Source: Bacteroidia bacterium (GTDB lineage Bacteria > Bacteroidota > Bacteroidia > JANWVE01). From it: a stretch of DNA of 41,320 bases. The notes below the pieces were generated by a model that ran no database searches, was not told the DNA's origin, and saw only the letters and a list, made by a program, of their open reading frames with translations. The position numbers and the translations under genes were made by a program. Of this stretch, positions 10,195-38,160 are shown in pieces (position 1 is the stretch's first letter; each line of letters starts with the position of its first letter). The stretch spans positions 1-41,320 of the forward strand of contig JANWVE010000003.1 of assembly GCA_025057675.1 (NCBI GenBank). The letters run 5' to 3'.

Positions 10195-10327
10195 AAAGTA
10201 GAAAAATATGAAATTGTTGCTTTGAGTAATACACACAAAAATTGTGCTTTATTAAAGAGCGCACAAGTGATTGGTGCTGAGTAATTAAAAACGTGCTATT
10301 CTGATGGGTTTATTTAGGAAATTTTTT

Positions 10328-10887
10328 GGGCGTGTCCCTTCGCTGCGCTCGGGTCGGGCTACTACGCACTACGCTGACGCTTCGGTGCTACGCTGCGCTT
10401 CGCACTGCCTAACGGCATGCTCCGTATCCCTCACGCAAGCTGCGTTTGGATGTTTTACCTTATTTTCATACGCATGTTTGCTTTATCTTGTTTAAGGTTG
10501 ATTATCAAATACTTACAAGGTTAAATTTTTTTACTTTGTTTTAATTATGCTCATTTTACCTTGTTTTATATTCATTTTCAGGCATGTATAAGGTTAAATC
10601 TTGAATGTATGGACTTGTTCTAACACTTTAACCTTGAATACACAAATTTTACTTTGTTTTACCCTCTTTTTCAAGTGTTTACAGGGTTAAAAATATATTT
10701 TTATTTTGTTTAGTTTTAATTTTCAGGTACTTATAAGATTAAGTTTTATATAAGTAGGATTCAGCTACTTGCTGCTTGCGTGAGGCATGCGGAGGGCGTG
10801 CGTTAGCACGGTGCGGAGCGAAGTGAAGCACCGAAGCAAAGCGTAGCCCGCAGCACGCCGACCCGAGCATCAGCGAGGGACACGCCC
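10328..10887. repeat. Full-length intergenic repeat element (arm-core-arm)
   Basis: Left arm 10328-10439 (short outer module, TGCC-taac-GGCA hairpin). Core 10440-10774 in forward orientation with several ACCTTGT / ACAAGGT pairs. Right arm 10775-10887 (short outer module, GTGC-taac-GCAC hairpin). It lies between divergent genes. Confidence 0.92.
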
Positions 10888-10933
10888 AAAAAGCCTAAAA
10901 AGTACATATCCTTACTAAAAATTCCTAATTACT

Positions 10934-12083: not shown

Positions 12084-12243
12084 GTGTTTGTTTTTATTTT
12101 TCGCATAACCACCAAAAATAACGAGAAATTATTACAGTTTTTGATGTATCTAATTTTGAAGTGTTAGTAATTATATGTCTGTTATGTTTGAAAAGAGATA
12201 GTTTTGAGTGTGCTAAGTAAGAGGAGTATTTTTTATACTTTTT

Positions 12244-12857
12244 GGGCGTGTCCCTCGCTGCGCTCGGGTCGGCGTGCTGCGGGCTACGCTGACGCTTCGG
12301 TGCTTCGCTGCGCTCTGCACCGTGCTGACGCACGCCCTCCGCATGCCTCACGCAAGCTGCATTTTAATGTTTTACTTTATTTTTAGATGTACCTTTACCT
12401 TGTTTAATCTTGATTATCAAGTATTTACTTTACAAGGTTAAAGTTTTTTACCTTGTTTGAATTCGGATTTATTTTCTCTTGTTTCGTGTTCGTTTTCAAG
12501 TATTTGCAAGGTTAAACCTTGAACAAATACACTTATTACTACACTTTAACTCTGAACTATTATCCTCTACTTTATTTTGAATTGACTTTCAATAATTTAC
12601 AAGGTAAAAATATATTTTAACCTTGTTTAATGTTCATTTTCAGGTACTTACAAGATAAAGGTTGAATAAATGGAGTTAATTTACTTGCTGTGTGCGTGAG
12701 GCATGCGGAGGGCAAGCCGTCAGGCTTGGTGCGAAGCCCCTCGCCCACGCTTTCACTCTTGCCCAGGGGGTGGGCGGGTGGAGCGCAGCACCGTCAGCCC
12801 GTAGCACGCCGACCTTGTGGGCATGAGCGCATGCGAAACGCCCACAAGGGCACGCCC
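12244..12857. repeat. Full-length intergenic repeat element with extended right arm
   Basis: Left arm 12244-12356 (short outer module, CGTGC-tgac-GCACG hairpin). Core 12357-12691, forward orientation. Right arm 12692-12857 with the long outer hairpin, a C-rich extension (contains CCAGGGGGTGGGCGGGTGG) and the AAGCC-tgac-GGCTT hairpin. The arms are therefore of unlike types. Confidence 0.92.
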
Positions 12858-12883
12858 AAAAAATTAAAATTTAACAGAGAAAA

Positions 12884-32771: not shown

Positions 32772-32783
32772 AAGTTATTTTTT

Positions 32784-33389
32784 GGGCGTGTCCCTCGCTG
32801 CGCTCGGGTCGGCGTGCTGCGGGCTGCGCTATCGCTTCGGTGCTGCGCTGCGCTTCGCACTGCTCACGCACCCTCCGCATGCCTCACGCAGTAGCCTTGG
32901 GATGTTTTACCTGATTTGCATACATACCTTTGCTTTACCTTGTTTGATATTCATTATCAAGTACTTACAAGATTAAAATTTTTTACTTGGTTTGAACCAC
33001 TGTTGTTTTATCTTGTTTTGTACTCATTTTCAAGCACGTACAAGGTTAAACCTTGAATAGATAGACTTTACACAATCCTTTAACCCTGATTAAATAAGCT
33101 TTACCTTGTTTTTCACTCATTTTCAAATATTTACAAGGTTAAGGTGTATTTTTACCTTGTTTAACATTCATTTTCAGGTACTTACAAGGTCAAAATTTGA
33201 ATAGATGGGATTAGTTTCTTAGCCGCTTGCGTGAGGCATGCGGAGGGCGTGCGGTAGCACGGTGCGAAGCCCCTCGCCCACACTGAAACCCTTGACCAGG
33301 GGGTGGGCGGGTGGGGCGTAGCACCGTTAGCCCGTAGCACGCCGTCCTTGTGGGCATACGCGCAGCGTAACGCCCACAAGGACACGCCC
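32784..33389. repeat. Full-length intergenic repeat element, forward core
   Basis: Left arm 32784-32890 (short outer module, TGC-tcac-GCA). Core 32891-33225, forward, four paired units. Right arm 33226-33389 with C-rich extension, CGTGC-tacc-GCACG and the long outer hairpin. It lies between convergent genes. Confidence 0.92.
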
Positions 33390-33489
33390 AAAAAAACATT
33401 AAAAAATACCTTTCATTATCTGTTCATTTTGTTGTAAAAAATAACCAACCTTATACCTCGCAGTAACAAAAACATAAAAAAATAAATTT

Positions 33490-35452: not shown

Positions 35453-35568
35453 TTGCGTGAGGCATGCGAAGGGTGCGTAAGCAGTGCGCAGCACCGAAGC
35501 GAAGCGCAGCCCGCAGCACGCCGACCTTGCTGGCATGAGCAAAGCGAAACGCCAGCAAGGACACGCCC
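35453..35568. repeat. Solo repeat arm with compensated outer stem
   Basis: A single right-type arm with no core or partner. TTGCGTGAGG begins one base after the stop codon of the cyclophilin gene. The inner hairpin is TGC-ttac-GCA; the outer hairpin is CCTTGCTGGC / GCCAGCAAGG, which differs from the usual CCTTGTGGGC / GCCCACAAGG by two changed pairs, both compensated. It ends GGACACGCCC, 32 nt before the MFS gene. Confidence 0.88.
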
Positions 35569-35600
35569 AAAATAAAAAAGAAAAACTTGTATAGAACTAT

Positions 35601-36854: not shown

Positions 36855-36859
36855 ATTTT

Positions 36860-36966
36860 GGGCGTGTCCCTCGCTGCGCTCGGGTCGGCGTGCTACGGGC
36901 TACGCTATCGCTTCGGTGCTTCGCTACGCTACGCACTGCTCACGCACCCTCCGCATGCCTCACGCA
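36860..36966. repeat. Left arm of the Rpn-containing element
   Basis: Short outer module and TGC-tcac-GCA inner hairpin. It begins 5 nt after the MFS gene stop codon. Inverted partner at 38005-38113. Confidence 0.9.
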
Positions 36967-37043
36967 GTCTAAACCTCGCACTTCTTTAAACTCACCCGCT
37001 TGCATGTACTTAATTCTATCAACCCATTATCTCTATTTTTTTG

Positions 37044-37051
37044 TATCCTTG
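37044..37051 (+). promoter_or_regulatory. Near-consensus -7 box of the Rpn gene
   Basis: TATCCTTG (one mismatch to TAnnTTTG) followed by 4 nt and the ATG at 37056. It lies inside the arms, so the gene would carry its own promoter. Confidence 0.35.
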
Positions 37052-37055
37052 TACA

Positions 37056-37829
37056 ATGGCTTACATAGCTAATCCTATATTTGACGCTGTATTCAAATAC
37101 ATGATGGAAGATCAAGCCGTAACTAAATGCTTTATCGGCATCATCAACAAAAAAATAAAAGCGCTCAAACTCAAACCCCAAGAAAAAACTTATCACAAAA
37201 CAGACGCAGATGTAACCTACATGCTCACTCAAAGGTTAGATTTTATCGCAGAGATTATAGATGAACACAAAAAGAAAACCAAAGTGTTGATAGAAATTCA
37301 AAAATCTAACCGAAGTTATCACGCAGACGTACTCCGATTTAGGGGCTATCTTGCTCAACAATACCAATCTGATGATTTACCTATCATTACCATATACATA
37401 TTAGGTTTCGATCTCAAAGATTTGCCCTACCCTGCGGTGCATGCCCATCTTGTTTGCAAAGACCTTTTTTATGAAAAGAATATAGAAAACCCCTCTGAAT
37501 TTTTAGATAAATTAACACATCAGACGTATGTGATACAAGTGCCGAGGTTAAAACCTGTATTGCGGAATAGGTTGAGTGAGTTGTTAGATTTATTCAATCA
37601 GGAGTATCGTTTGAGTGATGTCAAGCCAGGTAATCGTACGTTGAATGTGCCATATATTCCGAAGGATAAAGATATTAGTTTAATCATGAAGCGGTTAGAG
37701 AAGGCGAATGCAGATGAGGCATTAAGAGAGAAGTTAAATGATGAGGAGTTTGCGGATATGGCTTATGAGGAGATGTTTGGTAAGTTAGATAGAAAGGTAT
37801 TGCGTTTAGAGAAGAGACTTAAAAAGTAG
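37056..37829 (+). CDS. Rpn family recombination-promoting nuclease / putative transposase (PD-(D/E)XK), truncated by amber stop
   Basis: 257 aa before a TAG. Belongs to the PD-(D/E)XK nuclease 'transposase' families: N-terminal NPIFDAVFKYMM, catalytic Asp62 (RLDFIAEI) and Glu80-Ile-Gln82 (VLIEIQKS), then YHADVLRFRGYLAQQY and PIITIYILGF. Known E. coli Rpn proteins are DNA nucleases that raise RecA-independent recombination, and rpn loci have been linked to phage defence with short C-terminal products as inhibitors. The C-terminal half (from about 185) is charged and helical (KRLEKANADEALREKL). Reading continues in frame past the TAG for 50 codons with family-like sequence, so the gene is probably broken or read through. 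Base use changes near 37500: A/C-rich before, G/T-rich after. Flanked by inverted arms of the repeat family. Confidence 0.85.
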   Translation: MAYIANPIFDAVFKYMMEDQAVTKCFIGIINKKIKALKLKPQEKTYHKTDADVTYMLTQRLDFIAEIIDEHKKKTKVLIEIQKSNRSYHADVLRFRGYLAQQYQSDDLPIITIYILGFDLKDLPYPAVHAHLVCKDLFYEKNIENPSEFLDKLTHQTYVIQVPRLKPVLRNRLSELLDLFNQEYRLSDVKPGNRTLNVPYIPKDKDISLIMKRLEKANADEALREKLNDEEFADMAYEEMFGKLDRKVLRLEKRLKK

Positions 37830-37982
37830 GAGAGAGAATTAGAACAAGAGAAACAACGCGCAGAACAAGAAAAAGTACTTACCGTTCAGAATCTGTTACA
37901 GAAAGGTTTTTCTGTTGAGGAGGTAATGGAAATTGCAGGTGTCGATAAAAAGTTTCTCAAAAAACATAATTTGTTGATTTGA
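37830..37982 (+). pseudogene. Detached in-frame C-terminal tail of the Rpn gene
   Basis: After the TAG at 37827-37829 the same frame stays open for 50 codons to a TGA. It encodes a glutamate/glutamine coiled coil (ERELEQEKQRAEQEK), then LLQKGFSVEEVMEIAG and KKFLKKHNLLI. The 'kGxSxEEVxEIxG' segment is the usual end of Rpn-family proteins, so this is the natural C-terminus cut off by a nonsense change. Only an internal ATG giving 18 residues is available for independent translation. Confidence 0.75.
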
Positions 37983-38004
37983 GCAGGATTAGTGCAGGGT
38001 TTAT

Positions 38005-38113
38005 TTGCGTGAGGCATGCGGAGGGTGCGTCAGCAGTGCGGAGCGTAGCGAAGCACCGAAGCGATAGCGTAGCCCGCAGCACGCCGACCCGAGCGCAGCG
38101 AAGGGACACGCCC
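38005..38113. repeat. Right arm of the Rpn-containing element
   Basis: TGC-tgac-GCA hairpin and short outer module, ending GGGACACGCCC. It starts 22 nt after the detached tail's stop codon. Nearly identical in inverted sense to 36860-36966. Confidence 0.9.
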
Positions 38114-38160
38114 AAAAAATAAAATTTATCAAAAAGATTTTCTGTTGAGCTGTGAGACAA

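Follow-up and report, generated by a model that had tools for sequence, protein, structure and literature searches.

We identified a family of inverted-repeat arms that, in the genome containing the window, flank every complete gene of the Rpn nuclease type as inward-facing pairs. By the window we mean the whole 41,320-nt stretch of DNA analysed here, which is contig 270 of the 336 contigs of a 2.89-Mb genome, hereafter G000; two congeners, G001 and G002, were searched as well. About a dozen copies of the element bear an Rpn gene, and hundreds of non-coding copies have the same termini. We observed that these copies share their ends, that the gene lies within the element, that Rpn is specifically the gene found there and that the elements sit at breakpoints of gene order. 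The reading we prefer, with our confidence falling a little short of evenly divided, is that of a lineage-specific inverted-repeat family linked to Rpn, in which cutting by Rpn and repair by copying would have spread both gene and ends.

The unit in the window and its parts are as follows.

36856..38117, forward strand: complete Rpn-bearing inverted-repeat unit of 1,262 bp, with ends TTTTGGGCGTGTCC... and ...GGACACGCCCAAAA, without target-site duplication
36856..36966, forward strand: left arm, type a, 96% identity with the left end of the consensus non-coding element
38006..38117, reverse strand: right arm, also of left type a, 97% identity with the consensus left end
37056..37829, forward strand: Rpn-type PD-(D/E)XK nuclease gene, encoding 257 aa before a TAG
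37830..37982, forward strand: in-frame rest of the C-terminal helical domain past the TAG, open in the G002 orthologue

A preliminary description of this DNA had noted two inverted arms with few differences around a PD-(D/E)XK gene, and both points hold: aligned with each other, the arms are 96.4% identical over 112 columns (three mismatches and one gap), a match far beyond chance, and the 1,039-bp interior contains the Rpn-related ORF at 37056-37829 as its single gene. The unit consists of arms only, with no core; both arms are left-type, and no other unit found is as symmetric. The same description took the matching arms to suggest a recent unit. However, each arm is equally or more similar to arms elsewhere (best identities 0.973 and 0.982) than to the other arm of the pair (0.964), and the similarity of the two therefore does not date the unit. 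The gene belongs to a different Rpn lineage from the main one (37% identity), and its orthologue in the congener, G002:C30, is 81.5% identical with the C-terminal tail intact. In the window copy an in-frame TAG at 37827-37829 splits the nuclease domain from the C-terminal domain, which corresponds to the antitoxin RpnS in E. coli; since this stop codon cuts off the C-terminal domain, the copy is probably impaired. An Rfam search of the window returned a tRNA as the sole match, and PADLOC returned nothing relevant.

Rpn nucleases occur in dozens of phyla under the label "putative transposases" (PMC10327210), and the window protein appears from its sequence to be a distant member of this group. 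Like the published Rpn/YhgA-like nucleases (PMC5350276, PMC10327210), the proteins studied here have a D-D-ExQ-R pattern at nearly equal spacing, a C-terminal helical domain and several copies per genome. In 35 related proteins the residues D10, D58, E76, Q78 and R88 (numbered as in the L044 copy) are invariant; they are intact in the window gene and parallel, in the same order and with nearly the same spacing, D11, D63, E82, Q84 and R94 of E. coli RpnA, so that the RpnA active-site pattern is present. The five RpnA residues have been tested by mutation in E. coli (PMC5350276). Unlike the published nucleases, these proteins resemble the family profiles below the curated cut-offs: the G002 orthologue of the window gene matches TIGR01784 with an E-value of 7.9e-9 and 35.7 bits against a cut-off of 52.1, relatives of the window gene in the genome and genus match PF12784 at 5e-5, under its cut-off, five of the 35 related proteins match TIGR01784, and no profile match exceeds the curated threshold of the family (TIGR01784 / PF12784 / COG5464). 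An AlphaFold model of an Rpn protein is confident (pLDDT 87.6) and predicts an N-terminal domain of mixed alpha/beta structure and, after it, a long helix; neither fold search nor sequence search with the Rpn protein gave a significant match in the PDB.

We surveyed 792 kb, about 27% of G000, for non-Rpn genes within arms, and searched for Rpn genes genome-wide. This sample contains 468 arms and 190 inward pairs with interiors mostly of 320-360 nt, which corresponds to about six arms per 10 kb or one per 1.7 kb; the window holds 25 arms, and the elements make up about 15% of the sampled DNA. Almost all arms (465 of 468) are intergenic, outside our gene proxies. The consensus element is 608 nt long, with about 80% identity from copy to copy and a core less conserved than the arms. 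As the preliminary description had it, typical non-coding copies carry an AT-rich core, here of about 340 nt; in it a unit of about 46 nt recurs, four to five times in all, with self-matches at consensus positions 155-200, 230-273, 323-366 and 373-416. Both termini, TTTTGGGCGTGT and ACACGCCCAAAA, are present in 174 copies. For the flanks of 173 elements, target-site duplications were as frequent in the observed sequence as in shuffled sequence, and none stood above chance. Three typical copies in the window are the following.

10324..10891, forward strand: arm b, AT-rich core of about 340 nt and arm a; core reference
12240..12861, forward strand: arms a and c
32780..33393, forward strand: arms a and c

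The arms of core-type copies are indeed mismatched, as had been claimed, with a median left-right identity within an element of 0.60 (153 elements) versus 0.964 in the window unit. This value is no higher than that between left and right ends of different elements, and left ends compared with left ends reach 0.78. In G000 nearly every element has left and right ends of different types; the scarcity of symmetric elements looks like an avoidance of long, identical arms in inverted orientation. The hairpins that the preliminary description ascribed to the arms were not borne out, because single arms of types a and b fold no better than shuffled sequences (z about +1); for type c, z is only -1.2. 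Some cores carry a second non-coding insertion of about 165 nt (L052 5714-6430 and L069 1941-2680) with the ends AGA(C/G)TTTATGAACA and TGTTCATAAA(C/G)TCT. The outer 33 nt of the arm were also found at L085 and L088 in G039, a genome from the same class that is otherwise unrelated, and thus the outermost segment may be an older and wider repeat of Bacteroidia.

The protein search of G000 gave seven Rpn matches and the profile search 18 matches or pieces, which together represent 14 places in the DNA read; G002 has 12. Apart from the complete genes, the G000 pieces are cut at contig ends and have an inward arm on the visible side, with the exception of contig C93, and places lacking an inward arm on a visible side number one of 14 in G000 and one of 12 in G002. 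Where arms are visible on both sides, an inward pair surrounds 5/5 Rpn genes versus 1/462 other genes in G000 (p = 3e-11), and 4/4 versus 1/503 in G002 (p = 2e-9), whose one non-Rpn exception depends on a 23-nt arm fragment. Both genomes therefore show the excess of arm-enclosed Rpn genes that the preliminary description called for. Rpn-bearing contigs were fetched on purpose, but this does not make the Rpn genes a selected sample, because they were searched for genome-wide. Orientation separates the two classes as well, 424 of the 462 ordinary genes lying in a -/+ setting between outward arm ends and the Rpn genes between inward ends. We conclude that the arm link is specific to Rpn. The real exception in G000 is an orphan single-copy gene of 269 aa (L225 13770-14576) in a complete arm pair without core (L225 13485-15236, contig C22), whose spacer contains repeated TGTAGTAAGATG. 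By eye, its product has a P-D-I ... F-E-I-Q-K stretch and a coiled coil, and for this reason it could be a PD-(D/E)XK protein.

In units of the main lineage, consensus positions 1 to about 200 are followed by the gene and then by positions 230-608, and the distances from arm to gene are mostly fixed, at about 140 nt on the stop side and about 263 nt on the start side. Judged by this layout, the abundant non-coding element appears to be the main-lineage Rpn element minus its gene; that the Rpn unit is a gene-carrying relative of that element, as had been proposed, is thus in line with the core retained on both sides of the gene in this lineage. By analogy, the two forms would make up a gene-bearing and gene-less pair of the IS/MITE or RAYT/REPIN kind. 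As with ISCca4/MITECca01 of Cardinium (PMC9769881), gene-bearing and gene-less copies have common ends, the gene-less copy corresponds to the gene-bearing one without its gene, and both ends together with subterminal DNA are common to the two. Unlike that pair, the units here have neither a DDE transposase nor target-site duplications, their left and right ends are unlike, and their share of the genome is very high, about 15% of the DNA sampled. With REPIN/RAYT systems (PMC3116915, PMC2817692, PMC8266576) they have in common many short repeat elements in intergenic positions of one genome, and a tie to an enzyme that cuts DNA and whose gene has those repeats on its flanks. They differ from these systems in that the enzyme is a PD-(D/E)XK protein (Rpn) instead of a Y1 HUH transposase, that the arms of about 110 bp do not form a hairpin palindrome better than shuffles, and that the elements are about 0.6 kb long with a conserved core. 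The Y1/RAYT transposase profile (PF01797) was absent from G000, G001 and G002 and was detected in controls; RAYT as the driver is accordingly excluded in the three genomes, as far as Pfam can see. Restriction-fold nucleases are also tied to DNA mobility in PD-(D/E)XK homing endonucleases and Tn7 TnsA (PMC5350276, PMC10327210), but the units have no intron or intein host site as the former would, and no TnsB-like partner as the latter. As far as the papers searched show, the association of a restriction-fold nuclease with an abundant repeat is new.

Since whole-element empty sites were not found at the nucleotide level in G002, we used protein-level synteny, counting junctions between neighbouring G000 genes with G002 orthologues away from contig ends. 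Adjacency is kept in G002 at 66 of 70 junctions without an arm (four broken) versus one of 14 with an arm (13 broken). The effect survives restriction to spacers of at least 120 nt (9/12 kept without an arm versus 1/14 with one, p = 8e-4) and to non-codirectional pairs (9/10 versus 0/6, p = 9e-4), and therefore, with the small numbers involved, is not just an operon effect. The order PPIase-MFS-X is kept in G001 and G002, and in G000 the place after MFS is taken by the Rpn unit and a YgjP-like gene, so the window unit marks a breakpoint specific to G000. Thus the search for empty sites, which the preliminary description had suggested, failed for whole elements and yielded one site for a single arm.

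35454..35575, reverse strand: single arm in the PPIase-MFS spacer, which in G002 is 19 nt long and arm-free, an empty site

The link between Rpn and the repeat holds in G000 and G002 but does not extend to Rpn genes in general. In G001 there are arms with no Rpn gene inside and about a dozen Rpn genes without arms, whose flanks have no repeats in common except in nearby duplicated copies. In a tree of 40 Rpn proteins, arm-enclosed genes stand at three places, each beside arm-less G001 genes; well-supported branches force three changes of the arm trait, and some branches are long and were flagged by the tree program. The same three Rpn lineages are armed in G000 and G002 and arm-less in G001, and the arm association is accordingly lineage-specific, with three lineages involved. 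At 80 Rpn loci in other genomes, close flanking inverted repeats were rare and mostly lacking, and at L131, L136, L144 and L191 the flanking repeats were distant or unclear; together with G001, these mostly arm-less loci rule out arm enclosure as a general Rpn trait. In a MAG of the Saprospiraceae, perfect inverted repeats of 33 bp flank one Rpn gene (L133 107-139 and 1216-1248), and a second Rpn locus in that MAG (L158) has the right-hand 33-bp repeat; this is possibly a parallel case.

Main-lineage Rpn copies of G000 are under strong purifying selection (dN/dS 0.02-0.08). Silent divergence between species is 0.24-0.57 for most full-length main-lineage pairs and 0.42 for the window gene, whereas roughly 90-99% of the 178 orthologues compared, with a median of 0.66, diverge more. 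The low values suggest that Rpn genes were exchanged or converted between species; short Rpn pieces compared with G002:C178 had no such reduction. Near-identical Rpn genes have unlike outer arms (b/c at C122a and a/a at C333). Therefore, ends and interiors have been exchanged, and the unit was not simply copied end to end.

In the reading we prefer, the Rpn nuclease would make its cuts in or close to the ends of an element, or else in the core of a different copy. Element copies would then be used to repair one another, by copying or by joining, and this repair would spread gene and ends, swap arms and rearrange the chromosome without target-site duplication. Such a system would resemble an IS/MITE or RAYT/REPIN pair with a restriction-type nuclease as its driving enzyme. 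Several observations weigh against this reading. In vitro, E. coli RpnA displays hardly any specificity for sequence, or none (PMC5350276); published rpn genes were described as having variable ends and no identifiable terminal inverted repeats, a transposase role was judged highly unlikely, and the authors knew of no autonomous transposase of PD-(D/E)XK fold (PMC10327210). To these we add the lack of target-site duplications, the unpaired arms and Rpn genes of G001, the unlike arms on near-identical Rpn genes, the one unrelated gene in a complete arm pair and the fold search without a significant match. On the other hand, the genes described here, unlike the published ones, have defined ends common to hundreds of non-coding elements, and the G000 lineage is thus a counter-example to the premise that such ends, and terminal repeats, are missing from rpn genes, not a proof of function.

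A serious rival, to which we assign a smaller though substantial likelihood, is that another enzyme or homologous recombination spreads the elements and that Rpn is cargo that entered them, perhaps by homing into the core, as toxin/antitoxin or phage-defence genes carried along. This agrees with the role of Rpn proteins as toxin/antitoxin systems of the gene-within-gene kind that defend against phages (PMC10327210), with the low dN/dS expected of a maintained defence gene, with a fixed gene place in the core that suits insertion into a ready-made element, and with both the different arms of near-identical genes and the Rpn-less arms of G001. However, a neutral carrier should gain other genes, whereas the arms enclose Rpn genes of three lineages and next to nothing else; moreover, no RAYT was found and DDE_Tnp_1 matches are few and short. 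Slightly less probable again, and in our view unlikely, is the stronger form of nuclease-driven spread, an autonomous or trans-acting mobile family in which one Rpn nuclease recognises the arms of about 110 bp, has made hundreds of non-coding derivatives, and breaks and reshapes the chromosome. It is improbable that the arms are passive sequences, such as intergenic terminators, that recombine by RecA and enclosed Rpn by inversion or deletion between elements: their intergenic position and their presence at breakpoints fit this, but chance should trap any gene, 461 of 462 others are not enclosed, and the position of the Rpn gene within the core is fixed. Finally, we give virtually no credence to enclosure as a trivial outcome of an arm density at which most genes lie between arms, for this density, although very high, places ordinary genes between outward and not inward ends.

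With Rpn-driven cutting and copy repair as our tentative preference, the finding matters in that several Rpn lineages lie in units with defined ends that are common to hundreds of gene-less copies at breakpoints. The element is thereby a concrete candidate substrate for Rpn, and G001, where the same lineages are arm-less, is a natural control. With a candidate substrate and control genomes available, a possible action of any Rpn on specific DNA for mobilisation therefore becomes directly testable.
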